Made by a program: the position numbers and the translations under genes. Of a DNA stretch of 64,000 nt, positions 50,548 to 61,428 are shown in pieces. Source of the stretch: Hyphomicrobiales bacterium. Its GTDB lineage: Bacteria; Pseudomonadota; Alphaproteobacteria; Rhizobiales; CAJQND01. The stretch is from assembly GCA_028285595.1 (NCBI GenBank), contig JANQOW010000067.1, forward strand, positions 1 to 64,000, written 5' to 3'. The notes below the pieces were generated by a model, which was not told where the DNA came from, did not search any database, and saw only the letters and a program-made list of their open reading frames with translations. Numbering within the stretch: the first letter of the stretch is position 1; each line of letters begins with the position of its first letter.

Positions 50548-50958
50548 TCAAAACTTCCTATAGGCCTTGTTGAGCTGAACCATCGGATGGTCCGGCGACA
50601 TCTGAAACTTGATCAGCATCTCGCGGGCCATCATGTCCCGGTCCTGCTGATTGTTCGGAAGTTTGATATCGTCCGGGATCGCCAGCCAGCCGTTGATGTT
50701 GCGGTCAAACACGGCGGGCTTGCCGTCGTCATAACCCATATGCACATCTTCCAGCCAGTTGAGATCATCCCAGCCCATGAACTCCATATAGCCCTTCAGG
50801 AAGGGCGTCAGGCGGTCATAGTCGGGCACCAGGTTCACATCGTAGCGGTAGCCGATGTGTTGGCCGAGTTCGCGCTCACGGTCGGAGTCCAGTCCATCGC
50901 CTTTGATGAACTGGTCCACATCCTTGATTTCTGAGCCTTTATAGCTTGATCCTGCCAT
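50548..50958 (-). CDS. Hypothetical protein in the glutamate-synthase-like operon
   Basis: 136-aa ORF, acidic, YDRLTPFLKGYMEFMGWDDLNWLEDVHMGY; starts 19 bp after the upstream stop. Confidence 0.6.
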   Translation of the reverse strand: MAGSSYKGSEIKDVDQFIKGDGLDSDRERELGQHIGYRYDVNLVPDYDRLTPFLKGYMEFMGWDDLNWLEDVHMGYDDGKPAVFDRNINGWLAIPDDIKLPNNQQDRDMMAREMLIKFQMSPDHPMVQLNKAYRKF

Positions 50959-50976
50959 CGGTTCGTCCTCTCAAGA

Positions 50977-52362
50977 TCAAATGTGGTGATAGTCTTCAAC
51001 GCCGACCGTGTGGTCGGTGCCGGCCAACGGCACTTGGGCCATGGCGGAGGCTTCCATGGTGAGCGCGGCAAGATCTTCCGGCTCCAGGGAATGGACGTTG
51101 GTTTTACCGCAAGCGCGGGCCATCATCTGTGCTTCGATGGTCAGCGTGTGCAGGAAGTTGTAAACCCGCTCAGCGGCTTCATCAGGGTTCAGGCGCTTAC
51201 GCAACTCCGGGTCTTGCGTGGCCACGCCCACCGGGCAACGCCCTGTGTGGCAGTGGTAACAAGAGCCTGCAGGCACTCCCATTTCCTTCTCATAGTCGGC
51301 TTCGGGAATGTCCTTGTTGCAGTTCATCGCCATCATGGCCGAGTGACCGATGGCAATGGCATCAGCGCCCAAGGCAAGGGCCTTGGCCACGTCGCCGCCG
51401 TTGCGAATGCCGCCGGCATAGACCAGCGAGATCTCGCCGCGCTTGCCGATATCATCGATCGCACGCCGCGCCTGGCGGATGGCGGCCATGCCGGGCACAC
51501 CGGTTTCTTCGGTGGCCAGGTGCGGGCCCGCCCCGGTGGAGCCTTCCATGCCGTCGATGTAGATCGAATCCGGATCGGTCTTGGCGGCCATGCGAACGTC
51601 ATCATAAACACGCGCAGCGCCCAGCTTGAGCTGGATCGGGATCTGCCAGTCGGTGGCTTCGCGGATCTCTTGGATCTTCAGAGCCAGATCGTCCGGGCCC
51701 AGCCAGTCCGGGTGACGGGCTGGCGAGCGCTGGTCGATGCCGGCCGGCAGCGAGCGCATCTCGGCCACCTGGTCGGTCACCTTCTGGCCCATCAAGTGGC
51801 CGCCCAGACCCACCTTACAACCCTGGCCGATGAAGAACTCACAGCCGTCTGCAAGGCGCAGGTGGTGCGGGTTGAAGCCATAGCGGGACTGAATGTTCTG
51901 GTAGAACCACTTGGACGAATAGCGCCGCTCGTCGGGGATCATGCCGCCTTCGCCAGAACAGGTTGCGGTGCCGGCCATGGTGGCGCCGCGGGCAAGGGCG
52001 GTTTTGGCTTCAAACGACAAGGCGCCGAAGCTCATCCCTGTGATGTAGATCGGAATGTCCAGCTCAAGCGGACGCTTGGCACGGGGGCCGATCACGGTCT
52101 TGGTCAGGCACTTTTCGCGGTAACCTTCGATCACGAAGCGCGTCAAGGTGCCGGGGAGGAATGTCAGTTCATCCCAGTGAGGGATCTTCTTGAAGAGTGA
52201 GAAGCCGCGCATCCGGTAGCGGCCCAATTCGGACTTGATATGGATGTCATCCATGACCTGCTGGTTGAAGATCCAGCTTCTGCCCAGGATGGTCGTGTCG
52301 CGTCCGTTTCCGTTCTTTTTCGACTTCTTCTTTTTCTTCTTCTTTTTCTCGTCTTTAGCCAT
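50977..52362 (-). CDS. FMN-binding glutamate synthase family protein (MgsC/GlxD-like)
   Basis: GMSFGALSFEAKTALARGATMAGTATCSGEGG; IYIDGMEGSTGAGP; CYHCHTGRCPVGVATQDPELR. Confidence 0.9.
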   Translation of the reverse strand: MAKDEKKKKKKKKSKKNGNGRDTTILGRSWIFNQQVMDDIHIKSELGRYRMRGFSLFKKIPHWDELTFLPGTLTRFVIEGYREKCLTKTVIGPRAKRPLELDIPIYITGMSFGALSFEAKTALARGATMAGTATCSGEGGMIPDERRYSSKWFYQNIQSRYGFNPHHLRLADGCEFFIGQGCKVGLGGHLMGQKVTDQVAEMRSLPAGIDQRSPARHPDWLGPDDLALKIQEIREATDWQIPIQLKLGAARVYDDVRMAAKTDPDSIYIDGMEGSTGAGPHLATEETGVPGMAAIRQARRAIDDIGKRGEISLVYAGGIRNGGDVAKALALGADAIAIGHSAMMAMNCNKDIPEADYEKEMGVPAGSCYHCHTGRCPVGVATQDPELRKRLNPDEAAERVYNFLHTLTIEAQMMARACGKTNVHSLEPEDLAALTMEASAMAQVPLAGTDHTVGVEDYHHI

Positions 52363-52400
52363 GTTTCAGGTCTCCCAGGCCTCCTCAGAGGCGTGAATGG

Positions 52401-53246
52401 TTAGAGAACAATCTTCTTCTCGGTGGGCTCTAGGTTGTCGTAGTTCCAGAGCTGTTTACCGGCGACGATCTTGGTGAAGTGGTCCACGCCTTTGTCAGGC
52501 ATCAGCTCATATTGAGTGAGCTTGCGGGTGAGCCAGGCTTTGTCCAGATCCGTCAGCTCGCCCGGCACCGCGTCAACGCCGAGATCCTGGATCTCGCCGC
52601 CCACATAGATGGTGCCGTCATACATGCTGTCGCCCAGGTTCTTGCCGGCGTTGCCGCAAATGAGCATGCGTCCACGTTGCATCATGAAGCCGGAGAAAGC
52701 GCCCGTGTCGCCGCCGACGATGATGGAACCGCCCTTCATGTCGATCCCGGTGCGCGAGCCCACAGAGCCCTTGCAGACCAGATCGCCGCCGCGCAAGGCC
52801 GCGCCGAAGGTGGAGCCGGCGTTCTTTTCGATCACCACGGTACCGGCCATCATGTTTTCAGCACACGACCAGCCAACCCGGCCCGAGATGCGCACGTTTG
52901 GGCCGTCAAGAAGACCCACGCCGAAGTAGCCGAGGCTGCCTTCGATGATCAGGTTCAACCGGTTCAAGATGCCCACAGCGATGGAGTGCTTGGCGCCGGG
53001 GTTCTTGATGACAATGGTGCCATGGCCCTCGCTCATCAACTCGCGGATGCGGGTGTTGACCTCAGTGGCTTCCATGTTGTCGGCATTGATCTCGGCGCGC
53101 TTGTTGAAGTCCACATCAAACGCATCGTAGTAGCCGTAGCCGCCCTCGTTCTCGAGGGTGAACATGGTTTTGATGTCCCGGCCGGTGAGCGGCTCGGTGT
53201 GCATTCCCATTTCATGGGAAACGCTGTCTTGGTTCAGGCCTTCCAT
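52401..53246 (-). CDS. Glutamate synthase GXGXG-domain protein (MgsB/GlxC-like)
   Basis: IEGSLGYFGVGLLDGPNVRISGRVGWSCAENMMAGTVVIEKNAGSTFGAALRGGDLVCKG beta-helix. Confidence 0.88.
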   Translation of the reverse strand: MEGLNQDSVSHEMGMHTEPLTGRDIKTMFTLENEGGYGYYDAFDVDFNKRAEINADNMEATEVNTRIRELMSEGHGTIVIKNPGAKHSIAVGILNRLNLIIEGSLGYFGVGLLDGPNVRISGRVGWSCAENMMAGTVVIEKNAGSTFGAALRGGDLVCKGSVGSRTGIDMKGGSIIVGGDTGAFSGFMMQRGRMLICGNAGKNLGDSMYDGTIYVGGEIQDLGVDAVPGELTDLDKAWLTRKLTQYELMPDKGVDHFTKIVAGKQLWNYDNLEPTEKKIVL

Positions 53247-54169
53247 ACCCGGACCTCCTCATCATAAGGGTCATACGTATCGATTTCGTGGGGGATCACC
53301 GCGCGGATGGCCACCTCTTCAGAGGCGAGCGCCACCAGGTCGTCGGCTTCGTAAAGCACCATCGGCTTGGCGGCCATGGTGTCTTTGGCCATGCCCAGCT
53401 CATCGCGGGTGGTGACCAGATAGGTGAACACGCCGTCGATCTCTTCGATCGACATGCGCAGGCTCTCTTCCAACGAAATGCCCTTCTCAAGGTTCACGGC
53501 CGTGTAAACGGCGAGAAGCTCTGAGTCACAGTTGGAGACAAAGCGCTGACCGCTGCGTTCCAGGTGGCGGCGCATCAGCCAATAGTTGGTGATCTGGCCG
53601 TTATGCACCACGGCAATGTCGTTGTAGGGGTAGGCCCAGTACGGGTGGGCGGAGCGGATGTCTACGTCCGATTCCGTTGCCATCCGCGTGTGGCCGATGG
53701 CGTGGGTGCCTTCGAACTTGCCGAGGCCATATTGGTCGGACACCACGGTGGCATCGCCCAGGTCCTTGATCAGTTCAAGAGCGCTGCCGATCGAGAGGAT
53801 CTCAGCGCCGTTAATGTCTTCGATCCGGTCCGCAATCTGCTTCATGTCACCGTCAAAGGCGATCCGGTAGCGGTAGGCATATTCAGTCGCCTCCTCTTCC
53901 TTCTTCACCTTCACGCCCACTTCTTTCAGGAGCGCGTCCACTTTGGCGCGGCGGTCTTTGATCTCCTGGTGAATGTGAAAGCCCGTGGAGAGCTCTTCCT
54001 GCTCGGCCACTTTGAAGCGCATCACATATTCATCCTTGCCCGGTTTGCCGTAAATGGCAAAGCCGGTTGAATCGGGCCCACGGTGTTTGAGTGCCTGCAG
54101 CATGGCGGTCATTTCCCCGCCCACATTGCTGGTGCCCTTGCGGTGGATAAGCCCTGCTATTCCACACAT
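53234..54169 (-). CDS. Class II glutamine amidotransferase (MgsA/GlxB-like)
   Basis: MCGIAGLIHRKG N-terminal Cys; GHTRMATESDVDIRSAHPYW; NCDSELLAVY. Confidence 0.9.
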   Translation of the reverse strand: MCGIAGLIHRKGTSNVGGEMTAMLQALKHRGPDSTGFAIYGKPGKDEYVMRFKVAEQEELSTGFHIHQEIKDRRAKVDALLKEVGVKVKKEEEATEYAYRYRIAFDGDMKQIADRIEDINGAEILSIGSALELIKDLGDATVVSDQYGLGKFEGTHAIGHTRMATESDVDIRSAHPYWAYPYNDIAVVHNGQITNYWLMRRHLERSGQRFVSNCDSELLAVYTAVNLEKGISLEESLRMSIEEIDGVFTYLVTTRDELGMAKDTMAAKPMVLYEADDLVALASEEVAIRAVIPHEIDTYDPYDEEVRVWKA

Positions 54170-54263
54170 TTTTCTGCTCTCCCTTTAGAAATTGGGTTGC
54201 ACGGTCCTGGGGCGGGCGGCGCCATCGCGCCATCCGCCCAAACTTTTGTCCGCAATGCCGCGC

Positions 54264-55742
54264 TTAAGGCAGGCAGTGCAGGTAGGTTTCCTGATCCCAG
54301 TCGGTCACGGTCGACATGAACCGTGCCCATTCATCCGATTTGTACTCATGGTAGAGGCGGTACATCTCGCCCGGCATGCCGCGCTGGACCACCTCATCCT
54401 GCTCCAAGGCTTCCAAAGCTTCGCCCAGAGACATGGGCAGCTTCTTCACCTGCTTGCCGGCTTCCATGGCTTCGTAGATGTTGCGCTCTTCCGGCTCGCC
54501 CGGATCCAGGTTGTTCTCAATGCCATCGTCGGCGGCCGCCAGAATGGTGGAGCCCATAATGTAGGGGTTCACCATGGAGTCCACCGAACGGTACTCAAAG
54601 CGGCCCGGCGCGGAGACGCGCAGACCCGTGGTGCGGTTCTGGAAGCCCCAGTCGGCGAAGACCGGTGCCCAGAAGCCGGTGTCCCAAAGGCGGCGGTAGG
54701 AATTCACCGTGGAACAGCCGATTGCGGTCAGCGCACGCAGGTGGTGCACGATGCCGCCAATGGCTTTGAGACCCTGCTTGCCCGGCATTTGCGGATCGTC
54801 CGTGTCGGGCATGAAGGTGTTGTCGCCACCTTCGATGTACATGTAGTTGTCTTTCATGCCCGGCAGCTTTTTGGGATCGTTGCCGGTCTTGTGGAAGACA
54901 TCCTTACCGCCGCGCCAGAGCGACATGTTGTGGTGACAACCTGAGGCGGAGACGCCCATGAACGGCTTGGTCATGAAGCAGGCAATGAGGTTGAACTCAC
55001 GGGCCACCTGGGCACAGATCTGCCGGTAGGTGGTGAGCCGGTCTGCATTTCGCAGAACGTCGTCGAACATCCAGTTCAATTCGAGCTGGCCCGGTGCGTC
55101 CTCATGGTCGCCCTGGATCATGTCGAGACCCATGGCGCGGGAATACTCCATCACCTTCATGTAAACCGGACGTAGGCTCTCAAACTGGTCAATGTGGTAG
55201 CAGAAGGGTTCAGAGAAGCCCCCATTGGGCTTGCCGTTCTCGTCCTTCTTGAGCCACATCATTTCCGGCTCGGTGCCCATGCGCAGGTGAAGGCCTTTGT
55301 GCTTCTTTTGGAATTCCTCGTGCAGACGGCGCAGGTTGCCGCGGCCGTCCGAGGTCAGATAACCACCTGGGTTTTCCTTCTCTTCGCGGTTGCGGAACAA
55401 GGTGCAGTAGAACCGGGCGATGCGCTTGTCCCAAGGCAGCTGCATCATGGTTTCCGGCTCGGGGATGCCGACCAACTCGGCGGCTTCAGGTCCGTAACCC
55501 AGATATTCGCCGGCGCGGTTGGTGAACAGGTTCATGGTGGCGCCATAGACGAGTTGGAAGCCCTTCTTGGCGACGCTTTCCCAGTGATCTGCGGGGATCC
55601 CCTTGCCCATGATCTTGCCGGTTACAGAGACGAACTGCAGGTAGAGATACTCAATCCCCAACTCGTCGATCTTTTTGCGGACCTCTTTGACCTTCTCCGC
55701 ACGGCCCTTCTGTTTTACGAAATTTTCGATGTCCATCGGCAT
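54264..55742 (-). CDS. Glutamine synthetase family protein (GlnT / gamma-glutamylamide synthetase-like)
   Basis: MGTEPEMMWLK, QGDHEDAPGQLELNW, GCHHNMSLW, NSYRRLWDTGFWAPVFADWGFQNRTTGLRV. Confidence 0.88.
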   Translation of the reverse strand: MPMDIENFVKQKGRAEKVKEVRKKIDELGIEYLYLQFVSVTGKIMGKGIPADHWESVAKKGFQLVYGATMNLFTNRAGEYLGYGPEAAELVGIPEPETMMQLPWDKRIARFYCTLFRNREEKENPGGYLTSDGRGNLRRLHEEFQKKHKGLHLRMGTEPEMMWLKKDENGKPNGGFSEPFCYHIDQFESLRPVYMKVMEYSRAMGLDMIQGDHEDAPGQLELNWMFDDVLRNADRLTTYRQICAQVAREFNLIACFMTKPFMGVSASGCHHNMSLWRGGKDVFHKTGNDPKKLPGMKDNYMYIEGGDNTFMPDTDDPQMPGKQGLKAIGGIVHHLRALTAIGCSTVNSYRRLWDTGFWAPVFADWGFQNRTTGLRVSAPGRFEYRSVDSMVNPYIMGSTILAAADDGIENNLDPGEPEERNIYEAMEAGKQVKKLPMSLGEALEALEQDEVVQRGMPGEMYRLYHEYKSDEWARFMSTVTDWDQETYLHCLP

Positions 55743-55763: not shown

Positions 55764-55824
55764 ATTGGTTTTTTGATTGGCCTTAAATGGCGCTAAGGCC
55801 GGAGCATACCAATTATGGACCAAT
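55764..55824. promoter_or_regulatory. ATTGGY/ACCAAT repeat cluster upstream of the GS-like gene
   Basis: ATTGGT 55764, ATTGGC 55776, ACCAAT 55808 and 55819. Confidence 0.6.
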
Positions 55825-56125
55825 TTTGACAACTGGCAAGACTATTTTTAGGGCGGAATTTTTTCACCTCGCCCCGATAGAATGCTTCAATCGAAGCAAT
55901 GAGCAGGCGGGTGCTGTCAGTTCTTTGCCGTTTACCGGCAGAAATATTAGGTTTTTGTATTTGGGAAGCGGATCACAGGCAGGCGCTGAACCGCCAGATC
56001 CTGCGGGTGTTCGGTCAGGTGAAATGGTTACAACGCGGACCAATCGGCGCCCTTTCTGTGGTCAAAACAGAACCTTCCCTCGACGCGGTGCGTAATCATA
56101 GGTCATAATGTAAGAAGAAAAACAT

Positions 56126-56162
56126 ACCAATTTTATACCAATTATGACCAATAAGGACCAAT
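56126..56162. promoter_or_regulatory. Four-copy ACCAAT direct-repeat array with 11/10/10-bp periodicity over the gntR start
   Basis: ACCAAT at 56126, 56137, 56147, 56157; last copy overlaps the first ATG (56161). Confidence 0.72.
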
Positions 56163-56913
56163 GAAGGACCCCATGGCGAAGAAAGCTGAGTTCGATGTGA
56201 ACGGGTTGGCAGAGCATATGCCGGCCGACCTTTCGCCAGGGCGTGGGGCGGGGGCCATCACGGCGCGTCTGCGCAATGCGATCGAAACGGGCGTTTATTC
56301 CGATGGTGACCAGCTTCCGCCAGAGCGCCAACTGGCCACCGCCTTTGATGCGGCGCGCAGCACCATCCGCAAGGCGCTGAACCAACTTGAGCAAGCCGGG
56401 TTGGTGGAGCGGCGGATCGGCAGTGGCACCTATGTCTCCTACTCAGGACCCATTTCTGAGCAGGGAGATGAGATGATTGACCTGGTGAGCCCGTTGCAGC
56501 TCATCGAGGCGCGCTTTGCCATTGAACCCTACATGACCCGCCAAGCCGCGCTTCATGCCACCAAGCGTGATTTGGAGAACATTGAGGCGATCTTGGTGCG
56601 CCTTGAGGGAGCGCGCAATGATGAACCCTCGTTCTCTCGCTGGGACAGTGAGTTCCACCAGCAGTTGGCACGCTGTTCTCGGAACCCGCTCATTGTGCGG
56701 CTCTATCAGAACATCAACGAGGTGCGCTCCCATGCACAGTGGCGCGCCATGCGCCGCACGATCCTCTCTCCTGAACAGATTGACGTCTATAACGCGCAGC
56801 ATCGCCAGATCTACGATGCGCTCTGTGAGCGCGATCTGAAAACTGCGTCAAAGCGCATTGAGGCGCATCTGGAAAAGGCTCGGCAAGATCTCATCGGGGC
56901 TGAAAGCGGATAG
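56161..56913 (+). CDS. FadR-subfamily GntR transcriptional regulator
   Basis: LRNAIETGVYSDGDQLPPERQLATAFDAARSTIRKALNQLEQAGLVERRIGSGTYV plus FCD domain. Confidence 0.92.
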   Translation: MKDPMAKKAEFDVNGLAEHMPADLSPGRGAGAITARLRNAIETGVYSDGDQLPPERQLATAFDAARSTIRKALNQLEQAGLVERRIGSGTYVSYSGPISEQGDEMIDLVSPLQLIEARFAIEPYMTRQAALHATKRDLENIEAILVRLEGARNDEPSFSRWDSEFHQQLARCSRNPLIVRLYQNINEVRSHAQWRAMRRTILSPEQIDVYNAQHRQIYDALCERDLKTASKRIEAHLEKARQDLIGAESG

Positions 56914-56935: not shown

Positions 56936-57799
56936 ATGAGCCCGGTGGTACTTGGCAGCCTGGCGGCCTTATTCTGGGGCGTGCACGATCTGGTGGCCGG
57001 CATCTCCAGCCGCAAACTTGGCCATATGGTGGTCGTGCTCGGGGTGACCGTCTTCGGGCTCTTGGCCATTACGCTATGGATTGGGCTGACCTCTGAGTTT
57101 CCCAATATGGCGCGTACTGATGTTTGGGTGCCCTTGGCTGCAGGGGTTGGCTATGCGTGCGCGACCCTTTTCCTTTTTGCGTCCTTTGCCGCCGGGCCGT
57201 TTTCGATTGCCGCACCGGTCGGAGGGTCTTATCCGCTCACATCTATGATGATCGCCGCGCTGCTCGGTAACCCCACGAGCGGACTGCAGCTTGTCGCTGC
57301 TTTGACCGTTATTGCCGGCGTCGTGATTGTTGCCGTCACCGAACCCGGCGGGGACGGCGCGCAGACTTACGACAAACAGGCCATACGGCGCACCATCATC
57401 TGTGCCGGGCTTGCTCATATCAGCTTTGCCGTCGCCATCGCGCTTGGCCAACAAGCCGCTGTGCTCTTCGGCGCGGTGGAAGGTACATGGATCAGCCGCC
57501 TCGCGGGTGCCCTCTTGATCTTGTGCTTGTTCTTTACCGTCAACACCCGCCGCGCCCTTCCGTTCAAATGGATTGCGCCAGTGGTTGCGATCGGGTGTTT
57601 GGACGCGGCGGCCATCAGCCTGCTCAACGCCGCCGGCAACACCGATCAGCCGCAAATTGCGGCTGTGGCTGGGTCTGCCTTTGGGGTGGTGACGATTCTG
57701 CTTGCCCGGATTATCTTGAAAGAGCAAATCTCTCCCAAACGTTGGCTGGGGATTGCGCTGACCTTCGTCGGCGTGGCGGTCCTATCGGCTCTGGAGTGA
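56936..57799 (+). CDS. EamA/DMT-family transporter
   Basis: About ten TM segments; LGSLAALFWGVHDLVAG, terminal KEQISPKRWLGIALTFVGVAVLS. Confidence 0.88.
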   Translation: MSPVVLGSLAALFWGVHDLVAGISSRKLGHMVVVLGVTVFGLLAITLWIGLTSEFPNMARTDVWVPLAAGVGYACATLFLFASFAAGPFSIAAPVGGSYPLTSMMIAALLGNPTSGLQLVAALTVIAGVVIVAVTEPGGDGAQTYDKQAIRRTIICAGLAHISFAVAIALGQQAAVLFGAVEGTWISRLAGALLILCLFFTVNTRRALPFKWIAPVVAIGCLDAAAISLLNAAGNTDQPQIAAVAGSAFGVVTILLARIILKEQISPKRWLGIALTFVGVAVLSALE

Positions 57800-57803
57800 C
57801 CTG

Positions 57804-58634
57804 ATGATTGAGCTCACCGAGACGCACAAACACACGTTTCGTGAAGACGGCTTTGCCATCGTGGAAGGTGTGCTGGACCGCGAAACCATCGAGGCGGCGC
57901 GCGAGAAGTTTCCGCTTCTGTTCAAAGGTCAGTTTGAGACGGGGCTGCAGCCAGATGAGTGGAACTGGCATGAAGGCCGTGACCGCGATACGCTCACCCG
58001 GCAGATCTGTAATGGCTGGAAGGCGGACCGGACGATTGCCTCCATCGTTCTGCGCGAGGACATTGGACGGGCATGTGCTGAGCTGCGAGGCTGGCCGGGC
58101 TCGCGGATCAACCAAGACAATGTGATCTGGAAACCTCCAGGCTCAAAACCCTTAGGGTTTCACCAAGATGACAGCTACCAGGACTGGATTGTTCCCAACG
58201 AGATGATGACCTGTTGGATCACGTTGGATGACACCACGGCCACGGGTGGCACGATCGAATATGTGCGCGGTTCTCACCTATGGCCCTTGGCGCCGCCGAT
58301 TGGGCAGTTTCATGCGCCTGACGATGCGCTGGCCGATCTGAGGCCCGCGGCAGCCGGTGCGGGTGTGGAGCCTGAGATCGTTCCAATTGAGGTTCCTGCC
58401 GGTTCGGCCGTGTTCCACCACGGGCGCACATGGCATGGCTCGCGCGACAATAAAGGTGAGGCGCCCCGGCGCTCGGTGGTGGCCCATTGTATGTCATGCG
58501 ATGTGGCTCATCATCCCTCGAACGTACACCCGGTCTACAGCCGATATCGAAGGCAAGACGATCTGTCGATGGATGAGAGCTTCTTTCCCATCCTCTGGCG
58601 CCAAGATGGCTATCGTACGGCCTGGCTGCCTTAG
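57804..58634 (+). CDS. Phytanoyl-CoA dioxygenase (PhyH) family Fe(II)/2-oxoglutarate oxygenase
   Basis: GFHQDDSYQDWI (HxD), GTIEYVRGSH, HHGRTWHGSRDN. Confidence 0.9.
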   Translation: MIELTETHKHTFREDGFAIVEGVLDRETIEAAREKFPLLFKGQFETGLQPDEWNWHEGRDRDTLTRQICNGWKADRTIASIVLREDIGRACAELRGWPGSRINQDNVIWKPPGSKPLGFHQDDSYQDWIVPNEMMTCWITLDDTTATGGTIEYVRGSHLWPLAPPIGQFHAPDDALADLRPAAAGAGVEPEIVPIEVPAGSAVFHHGRTWHGSRDNKGEAPRRSVVAHCMSCDVAHHPSNVHPVYSRYRRQDDLSMDESFFPILWRQDGYRTAWLP

Positions 58635-58659
58635 TTCAGTTCAATAAGGGACATTCGGT

Positions 58660-59346
58660 TTGCCCAAGCATATCGGAATTGTGGCCTGCTCAGCAGAAGG
58701 TGCATCGCTTTGCTACCGCACGATCTGTGTGGAGGGAGCGGAGGTTCTGGGACCTCATGCCCATCCTGAGGTCACCATGCACACGCCCTCGCTTGCCGAC
58801 TATGTCGCGTGCCTGGATGCGGGCGATTGGGACGGTGTGGGGGCATTGATGCTCGCTTCGGCGGAGAAGCTGGCGGCGGCCGGCGCCGATTTCCTCATCT
58901 GCCCGGACAACACCATCCATCAGGCGTTCGGCCCTGTGGAGGCGCACTCTCCGTTGCCGTGGCTGCATATTGTGGACGGTGTCGCCGCGGCCGCCGAAGA
59001 GCAAGGCTTCCGCAAGCTGGCGCTTACTGGAACGCAATGGTTGGTAGACGGCCCGGTCTATCCTGATAAGCTGGCGGCGCGTGGTCTGGAGTGCGTGCGG
59101 CCCAGTGCTGAGGAACGGGCTGAGATGAACCGGATCATCATGCAAGAACTGGTCAACAGCACCTTCAAACCCGAGAGCACGGCCTACTTTCAAACAGCCA
59201 TTGAGGGATTGAAGAGCCAAGGATGTGATGCCGTCATATTGGGCTGCACCGAGATCCCGTTGATCATAAATGACGATAACTCAGCTTTGCCGACCCTGGA
59301 TTCTACCCGGCTTCTCGCCCGCGCCGCCTTACAGCACGCGCTCTAG
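58660..59346 (+). CDS. Aspartate/glutamate racemase family protein
   Basis: IGIVACSAEGASLCYRTI, CPDNTIHQ, VILGCTEIPLII; TTG start. Confidence 0.87.
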   Translation: MPKHIGIVACSAEGASLCYRTICVEGAEVLGPHAHPEVTMHTPSLADYVACLDAGDWDGVGALMLASAEKLAAAGADFLICPDNTIHQAFGPVEAHSPLPWLHIVDGVAAAAEEQGFRKLALTGTQWLVDGPVYPDKLAARGLECVRPSAEERAEMNRIIMQELVNSTFKPESTAYFQTAIEGLKSQGCDAVILGCTEIPLIINDDNSALPTLDSTRLLARAALQHAL

Positions 59347-60278
59347 TAGCCCCGGGCCCGGTTCACCTCGTGCAGGAGGGGTGAACCGTCTAATAAACGC
59401 CGATAGTTTTCCGCCACATCCTTGAGTGCGTCGCCCAAATGCCAGCCCGACACGTGGGGGGTCAGCGTCACTTTGGGATGGGTCCAAAGTGGGCTGTCCG
59501 GCGGCAAGGGTTCGCTGTTCACCACATCGAGCACCACCCCGCCCACATGATCGGCGTCCAGGTTGTTCATGAGGTCGCTTTCGATCACCAGATCGCCGCG
59601 GCCCACATTGATCAGGACGGAGCCCTTCTTCATGGACGCCAGAAACTCCCGGTTCACCAGCCCGCGGGTCTCCAGCGTCGAGGGTAACACGCAGGCCACG
59701 TAGTCGCATTCCTTGAGCATTGGCAGCAGTGTATCGGCGCCATGGCGGCATTCGATGCCTTCAATGTACTTGGGCGAGCGGCTGTAGCCGATGACCTTGA
59801 AGCCCACGGCCGCAATCATCTTTGCCGTGCGGCTTCCGATGTGGCCAAGCCCAAGCACACCCACAACGGTATCCGGCGTGCTGCGTGGCGCGATTGGCTG
59901 CCAGACGCGCTCTGCCTGGCGTGCATCGTGAAACTTCATGTTGCGTTGGTCGCGCAGAATATAGGCCAGGCAGAACTCGGCCATTTCCCGGGCCGGGGCA
60001 TCGGGCTTGAGGCGGGTGATTTTCACATGGCCTGGAAGGTCCGGATTGCCAACCATCGTCTCAACACCCGCTCCCAATTTCTGAACGAGTTTGAGATGCG
60101 GCAGCTTGGCCGCCAGGTCCGGGCGCAGCCGGGTCACGGCCGCCATCTCAATTTCGACCGGGTCGCCCATATTCTCGTAAACCCGCACATCCGCATCCGG
60201 AAGCATGGACAAAACCTCTCTGGCGAGAGCCTCATCGGTCATCCATTCCGGCATATTTACATCGATCAACAAGGCCAT
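59343..60278 (-). CDS. D-2-hydroxyacid dehydrogenase (GhrA-like)
   Basis: VVGVLGLGHIGSRTAKMIAAVGFKVIGYSRS; VGRGDLV; HVSGWH. Confidence 0.9.
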   Translation of the reverse strand: MALLIDVNMPEWMTDEALAREVLSMLPDADVRVYENMGDPVEIEMAAVTRLRPDLAAKLPHLKLVQKLGAGVETMVGNPDLPGHVKITRLKPDAPAREMAEFCLAYILRDQRNMKFHDARQAERVWQPIAPRSTPDTVVGVLGLGHIGSRTAKMIAAVGFKVIGYSRSPKYIEGIECRHGADTLLPMLKECDYVACVLPSTLETRGLVNREFLASMKKGSVLINVGRGDLVIESDLMNNLDADHVGGVVLDVVNSEPLPPDSPLWTHPKVTLTPHVSGWHLGDALKDVAENYRRLLDGSPLLHEVNRARGY

Positions 60279-60354
60279 GCCGCACCTCTCTCTCAACCGC
60301 AATCTGAGGGACAGTGTTGCTGAGATCAGGTGCCAAGACAAGCTGCAGTTGTGC

Positions 60355-61428
60355 TTATGCAGCCTCTCGAGCGCTCTGAGCTTTGGCTTTGGCAATGGCC
60401 TCACGGGCCATCTGATCGGCCATCTCGCTCGGCGAGGCGTTCTCGTCGTGGGCGCGGCGAAGGATCTTCTCTGTTCTCTCGCCTATGCGCATCACCGCGT
60501 TTAGAACGCGTTCCTTGGTGGCCTGCGGATCGCGCTCGGCTGCCACCGAGATTATCCCGCCTGCGTTGATCACATAGTCCGGCGCATAGGTAATTCCAGA
60601 CACCGCGAGAAGATTGCCATCGGTCTTGGCCGCCAGCTGATTGTTGGCCGCACCGGCCACCACCCTGGCTTTAAGAGAGCCGATGGTGTCAACGTTCAAG
60701 ATGCCGCCCAAAGCACATGGGGCGAGAACATCTGCATCAGCCTTCAGGACGTCTTCGATAGGAACCGGCGTGGCCGAAAACGCTTCAACCGCCCGGTCCG
60801 TGTTCGCGGTGTTAATGTCCGAAACAATCAGCTTCGCGCCGGCCTCGTGGAGCAGATTGCAAAGATGGTAGCCCACATGGCCGATGCCCTGGACGGCGAC
60901 GCGCATGTCTCTCAAATCAGCGGTTCTGAACCGATGCCCAATTGCGGCCTTCATACCTTCAAAGACGCCAAGCGCGGTCACAGGCGAAGGATCTCCGCCG
61001 CGATATCCATCATCCTTCGGAATCCCGCTCACATAGTCGGTGAACTTTGCCACGGAGCGCATGTTCTCAACAGACGTGCCCACGTCTTCTGCCGTGATGT
61101 AACGCCCACCGAGACCGTCCACGACACGGCCATAAGCTTCGAAGAGAGCGTCATCGGCGTTTGATCGGGTCCCACGCATGATCACGGCCTTGCCACCGCC
61201 ATAGGGCAGCTCGGCGAGGGCGTTCTTGTAACTCATGCCTTGGGAGAGGCGCAGGGCATCCGTCAGAGCCTCGCCGTCATCAGCGTAGGTCCACACCCGG
61301 CAGCCACCGAAAGCCGGGCCAAGGGCGGTTGAATGAATGGCGATAAATCCGCGCAGATCCGCCTCAGGCAGGCAGAAGGCGTGAACGGCTTCGTGATTGT
61401 CGAATCCCGGTTGGGAGAAGATGGACAT
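60355..61428 (-). CDS. Glu/Leu/Phe/Val dehydrogenase (leucine dehydrogenase-like)
   Basis: GMSYKNALAELPYGGGKAVI; VAVQGIGHVGYHLCNLLHEAGAKLIVSD; APCALGGILN. Confidence 0.9.
   Translation of the reverse strand: MSIFSQPGFDNHEAVHAFCLPEADLRGFIAIHSTALGPAFGGCRVWTYADDGEALTDALRLSQGMSYKNALAELPYGGGKAVIMRGTRSNADDALFEAYGRVVDGLGGRYITAEDVGTSVENMRSVAKFTDYVSGIPKDDGYRGGDPSPVTALGVFEGMKAAIGHRFRTADLRDMRVAVQGIGHVGYHLCNLLHEAGAKLIVSDINTANTDRAVEAFSATPVPIEDVLKADADVLAPCALGGILNVDTIGSLKARVVAGAANNQLAAKTDGNLLAVSGITYAPDYVINAGGIISVAAERDPQATKERVLNAVMRIGERTEKILRRAHDENASPSEMADQMAREAIAKAKAQSAREAA

Follow-up and report, generated by a model that had tools for sequence, protein, structure and literature searches.

The divergent promoter region between a gntR gene and an operon headed by a glutamine-synthetase-like (GS-like) gene, in the 64,000-nucleotide stretch of Hyphomicrobiales DNA analyzed here (the window), carries ACCAAT direct repeats set one helical turn apart. 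This array is real and conserved, and arrays with the same phasing recur beside orthologs of the regulator gene and beside genes for the use of methylated amines. From this we infer, with a probability of roughly three in four, that the arrays are operators of the adjacent GntR protein, a repressor of the TmoR clade, whose dimers would bind them cooperatively, repress their own gene along with a methylated-amine regulon, and be released by an effector.

The divergent locus and its repeats

The features of the locus, in window coordinates, are the following:

50548-50958, minus strand: 136-aa conserved protein, present at the end of the same operon in about 20 loci
50977-52362, minus strand: FMN-binding glutamate synthase-like protein (MgsC/GlxD-like; domain match)
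52401-53246, minus strand: GXGXG protein (MgsB/GlxC-like; domain match)
53234-54169, minus strand: class II glutamine amidotransferase (MgsA/GlxB-like; domain match)
54264-55742, minus strand: GS-like protein of 492 aa (PF00120), first gene of the divergent operon
55764-55769, minus strand: single ACCAAT (ATTGGT on the plus strand), putative accessory half-site near the GS-like start, kept in a sister species
55776-55781, minus strand: degenerate putative half-site GCCAAT (ATTGGC on the plus strand), 12 bp from the copy at 55764, kept in the sister species
55803-55839, minus strand: two promoter-like sites of the GS-like operon that overlap each other, TTGCCA-16-CATAAT and TTGTCA-18-TATGCT (consensus match only)
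55808-55824, plus strand: pair of ACCAAT (starts 55808 and 55819, 11 bp apart), overlapping the GS-like -35/-10 region
56039-56044, plus strand: single ACCAAT between the two predicted operators, seen in the sequence and in the sister-species alignment
56080-56109, plus strand: promoter-like site TCGACG-18-CATAAT of gntR (consensus match only)
56126-56162, plus strand: fourfold ACCAAT array (starts 56126, 56137, 56147 and 56157; spacing 11/10/10) at the gntR start
56161-56913, plus strand: FCD-type GntR regulator of the TmoR clade (Pfam GntR and FCD domains, tree, structure)
56936-58634, plus strand: genes for an EamA transporter and a PhyH-type oxygenase, which follow gntR here and in other loci

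The positions of the ACCAAT copies, their 11/10/10 phasing, the pair at 55808 and 55819 and the two ATTGGY sites at 55764 and 55776, as given in the first-pass annotation, are all borne out. The hexamer is ordinary in number over the window as a whole (22 seen against 24.6 expected), so that the signal lies in clustering and phasing. That ordinary frequency might suggest a functionless cluster arising by chance or composition, to which we give practically no weight: when the 430-bp intergenic region was shuffled 20,000 times by dinucleotides, giving a mean of 0.37 copies, no shuffle reached the 8 observed, and none exceeded a phased run of 2, against the observed run of 4. Further, in the sister species, whose GntR protein is 96% identical, the stretches at about 55764-55840 and 56126-56175 align nearly unchanged, whereas the central part of the intergenic region aligns poorly; the repeats are thus kept as a footprint, and the family-wide conservation described below points the same way.

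The 11-bp pair sits inside both overlapping promoter-like sites of the GS-like operon and is its predicted operator. The fourfold array, a predicted autoregulatory operator, begins 17 bp downstream of the promoter-like -10 of gntR and ends on the start codon, its fourth copy (56157) overlapping the ATG at 56161. Translation could also start at another in-frame ATG, at 56173, which has a good Shine-Dalgarno sequence; the MxDP start conserved in three orthologs (L090, L098 and L099) favors 56161. To the extent that the consensus matches mark promoters, this placement over the core promoters and at the start of gntR is the layout expected of a repressor. A role of the gntR leader at the RNA level was also considered; it has no match in Rfam, and we reject such a role because the repeats at the GS-like and tmm genes run antisense to the gene, over or near the promoter.

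In the GntR protein, the PF00392 (73.9 bits) and PF07729 (93.8 bits) domains both score above their cut-offs, while the nearest NCBIfam model, NanR, reaches 111 bits, below its cut-off of 260. The AlphaFold model shows the expected fold (pLDDT 82.8) with a disordered N terminus, and Foldseek matches it to FCD-GntR structures, with NanR ranked second. Invariant in 27 orthologs are D162, H166, H214 and H236 of the FCD domain, which we take to be its Asp/His metal site.

The divergent operon (50548-55742), with its GS-like, amidotransferase, GXGXG and FMN-binding synthase genes, is a second, longer gmaS-mgsABC paralogue. Its GS-like protein does not score above the glutamine synthetase equivalog cut-offs, and the 136-aa protein has no Pfam or NCBIfam match. 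Two ortholog loci (L107 and L117) carry both gmaS-mgsABC and the GS-like paralogue set, and the genome of the window itself has a separate gmaS-like gene (64%) along with a DUF3445 gene of the dimethylamine-monooxygenase kind. On the other side, gntR is followed (56936-61428) by genes for the EamA transporter, the PhyH oxygenase, an Asp/Glu racemase, a 2-hydroxyacid dehydrogenase and a Leu-dehydrogenase-like protein. In other loci, too, PhyH and EamA genes neighbor gntR, and in L140 a PhyH-like end lies ahead of tmm.

Arrays in relatives and across the genome

Scanning GTDB genomes with an alignment of the GntR protein gave 32 named ortholog loci, from Kiloniellaceae, Pelagibius, Aestuariivirga, Taklimakanibacter, Hyphomicrobiaceae, Methyloceanibacter, Anderseniella and others. 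In the 492 kb covered by 29 non-redundant loci, ACCAAT pairs on the same strand lie 10 bp (9 pairs), 11 bp (29), 20-22 bp (20) and 31-32 bp (4) apart, with single counts at other spacings. Permuting the hexamer in its 59 other ways yields on average 0.49 pairs at 10-11 bp, and the two permutations with the highest counts are shifted readings of the ACCAAT arrays themselves. A partly different set of loci holds 46 distinct arrays with 107 repeats, in which 39 spacings are of 11 bp and 22 of 10 bp; over these arrays the repeat unit reads CANACCAATT. The conservation in orthologous promoters that the first-pass annotation had proposed as a check is found, the array adjoining the FCD-GntR gene in about 25 of 30 ortholog loci; three loci (L106, L109 and L113) have no array at gntR. 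As that annotation also held, the GS-like and gntR promoters share the motif, and do so in relatives.

When 38 loci were sampled, 59 of their 60 arrays proved to be no more than 450 bp away from where a regulon gene starts. The gene list behind this count was partly drawn from genes beside arrays, so that the whole-genome search described below is the unbiased test. The orientation of the arrays in these loci is nearly fixed for each target gene: at the GS-like gene they lie on the opposite strand, 34-72 bp from the start in the large majority of loci (214 bp in L154); at tmm they are likewise on the strand opposite to the gene; at tdm they are on the same strand, as they nearly always are at gntR. 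One contig of a genome from another order (G371) brings together the GS-like operon, gntR (55%), a nitrilase gene, tdm, tmm and a periplasmic binding-protein gene, with three array regions and with gntR near tmm. No arrays were seen at the plasmid-borne tmm loci of Rhizobium leguminosarum and Paracoccus aminophilus. We also observed a family of about 200-aa proteins (L107, 1825-2424, and relatives), without a Pfam match and often beside amt, with arrays at the promoter. Distant FCD-GntR paralogs (L012, L016, L017, L018, L019 and L024) have ACCAAT or ATTGGT near their starts, in some cases as palindromes and in others as direct repeats, among them three tandem ATTGG at 9 bp in L017.

A genome-wide motif search, likewise suggested by the first-pass annotation, was run over 5.96 Mb with the pattern ACCAAT-N4-5-ACCAAT and returned 8 matches, compared with 2 for the reversed pattern. 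All 8 fall at four methylated-amine promoter regions, namely the GS-like/gntR divergon and three others:

C52: array upstream of an FMO-like gene, read as tmm (trimethylamine monooxygenase)
C139 (L071): array flanked by an AraC gene and by an OpuAC-ABC transporter, read as tmoX/W/V
C140: array upstream of a DUF1989+GCV_T gene, read as tdm (trimethylamine N-oxide [TMAO] demethylase)

The FMO-like protein shares 71-73% identity with those encoded in trimethylamine (TMA) clusters of Rhodobacterales, Paracoccus aminophilus among them, and we therefore read the products of these genes as putative Tmm, TmoX/W/V and Tdm of trimethylamine/TMAO catabolism, with names taken from the literature. Strict triple arrays are confined to two places in this genome, the divergon and tdm. 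Among 298 genomes sampled from the order, only 3 have such an array (G000, G001 and G020), and all of these carry the GntR ortholog. The same three have the most two-copy matches among 61 relatives (8, 8 and 12, respectively), while those lacking the ortholog give 0-5, a level similar to that of the controls. The two-copy pattern is hence unspecific in the absence of the regulator, and only arrays near the gene set or with at least three copies are informative. At C66 and C70 of the genome there are lone CCAAT-type pairs without a full ACCAAT pair.

The first-pass annotation had linked the two divergent operons into one regulon. The shared array supports the link, but two operons are too few: the predicted regulon is much larger, taking in tmm, tdm, tmoXWV, amt, nitrilase, DAO and other genes, and the GS-like operon is predicted to be controlled together with the TMA genes.

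The array at tmoX raises the question of which protein binds, as it lies between that gene and an AraC-family gene, and in Ruegeria an AraC protein, TmaR, binds all TMA promoters (PMC13390433). One alternative, then, is that the arrays are bound by another pathway regulator, such as an analogue of TmaR, and that gntR is merely one of its targets. We regard this as unlikely because an AraC-family gene is present at few loci, whereas the GntR gene lies beside an array in about 25 of 30. Moreover, a FadR-subfamily protein has ACCAAT as its half-site, and the placement of the arrays over core promoters and the gntR start fits a repressor.

Probable regulator and operator architecture

A known counterpart of the adjacent GntR protein is TmoR (SPO1553), which in Ruegeria pomeroyi represses tmm by binding directly to its promoter, responds mainly to dimethylamine (DMA) and to a minor degree to TMAO, and controls only tmm, without effect on tdm; the study describing it names no operator motif (PMC13390433). 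In a tree that includes TmoR of Ponticoccus and Thioclava, the window GntR and its orthologs form with these TmoR proteins a single supported clade (98/86), which stands apart from most other FCD-GntR paralogs and within which they are the sister branch to TmoR. Besides belonging to one clade, both regulators are encoded among TMA genes, and ACCAAT half-sites occur at the tmm promoters of TmoR-bearing Rhodobacterales just as an array does at tmm here. However, the window GntR is only 35% identical to the Ponticoccus TmoR, and its motif marks tmm, tdm, the transporter, the GS-like operon and gntR; given the restriction of Ruegeria TmoR to tmm, the wider regulon predicted here departs from that precedent.

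In Ponticoccus, two ACCAAT copies spaced by 10 bp stand at the tmm promoter. Most half-sites in TmoR-bearing Rhodobacterales are not one turn apart, in contrast to the 10-11 bp found here; the tmm promoters of four such loci (L177-L180) show recurring ATTGGTYCA about 32 bp apart. We suggest these half-sites as a candidate TmoR operator. We found no description in the literature of a phased array layout for a TmoR-type regulator.

The first-pass annotation rightly noted that GntR-type regulators usually bind a single palindrome. For the FadR/FCD subfamily this is NyGTM-N0-1-KACNy, usual but not strict, with known exceptions (PMC4494728); we did not find it here, where direct repeats stand instead. 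The PdhR box, ATTGGTnnnACCAAT, contains the half-site ACCAAT (PMC7660256), identical to the repeat described here, and the winged-helix domains are related, but the PdhR site is an inverted repeat with a 3-bp spacer. As a canonical PdhR-type palindrome, ATTGGT-N3-ACCAAT occurs just once in the 492 kb, against 38 direct pairs at 10-11 bp, and was rejected. These counts also bear on the idea that the arrays are rows of ordinary FadR-type palindromes with a degenerate second half, acting as independent sites without cooperative phasing. Sites of this subfamily are indeed often accompanied, at a distance of 7-12 nt, by an additional weaker half-site (PMC4494728); yet the positions expected for a second half-site carry little information and the spacing is kept to helical multiples, and we consider the idea quite improbable.

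The nearest precedent for phased direct repeats is NanR of Escherichia coli, which binds (GGTATA)3 cooperatively with one dimer per repeat (PMC8012715). It too is an FCD-GntR protein, its short direct repeats lie downstream of where RNA polymerase binds, and it is among the best PDB matches to the window GntR by both sequence and fold. Its half-site differs from ACCAAT, however, and its successive repeats are spaced by less than half a turn, with dimers offset by half a turn, whereas the repeats here are a full turn apart. The cooperativity of NanR depends on an N-terminal extension; the extension of about 30 aa in the window GntR is not conserved among orthologs, and a contact between neighbors would therefore have to be sought elsewhere in the protein. 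Direct-repeat operators are also known for the GntR-family regulators FarR, NagQ, GabR and TauR (PMC4494728), which belong to other subfamilies (HutC and MocR) and use other sequences and spacings. In light of exceptions such as NanR, FarR and NagQ, the array by itself implies neither another regulator, one of the two options named in the first-pass annotation, nor a new principle. The best reading is a predicted phased direct-repeat operator of a GntR/FadR-type protein.

Proposed repression and its meaning

We propose that each ACCAAT serves as a half-site of the FadR/PdhR kind, and that copies one helical turn apart (10-11 bp, or 21 and 32 bp where copies are skipped) would place several dimers on one face of the DNA, where neighbors might help each other bind, in line with the cooperative, filament-like binding suggested in the first-pass annotation. 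At the GS-like operon, the regulator bound to the pair would cover the -35/-10 region and block the operon; at gntR, the four copies reaching from just downstream of the promoter into the start codon would allow self-repression; and the same arrays elsewhere would impose a block on tmm, tdm and the TMAO transporter. By analogy with TmoR, a pathway intermediate, either dimethylamine or TMAO, might bind the FCD domain and cause release. A more far-reaching possibility, which we offer tentatively, is that this FadR-type clade has exchanged the palindrome for arrays of single half-sites phased strictly at one turn, with dimers stacked on one DNA face and with copy number tuning repression at each methylated-amine promoter. 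Such a one-turn array, of 2-4 copies and with whole-turn gaps allowed, would be geometrically unlike the half-turn assembly of NanR.

Taken in this way, the arrays would make the control of trimethylamine/TMAO use readable from DNA sequence in many uncultured alphaproteobacteria of sea and soil, and would tie the glutamine-synthetase-like operon to the methylated-amine pathway. They also provide ACCAAT as a candidate half-site for TmoR and may represent a second, differently spaced case of FCD-GntR dimer assembly on direct repeats.
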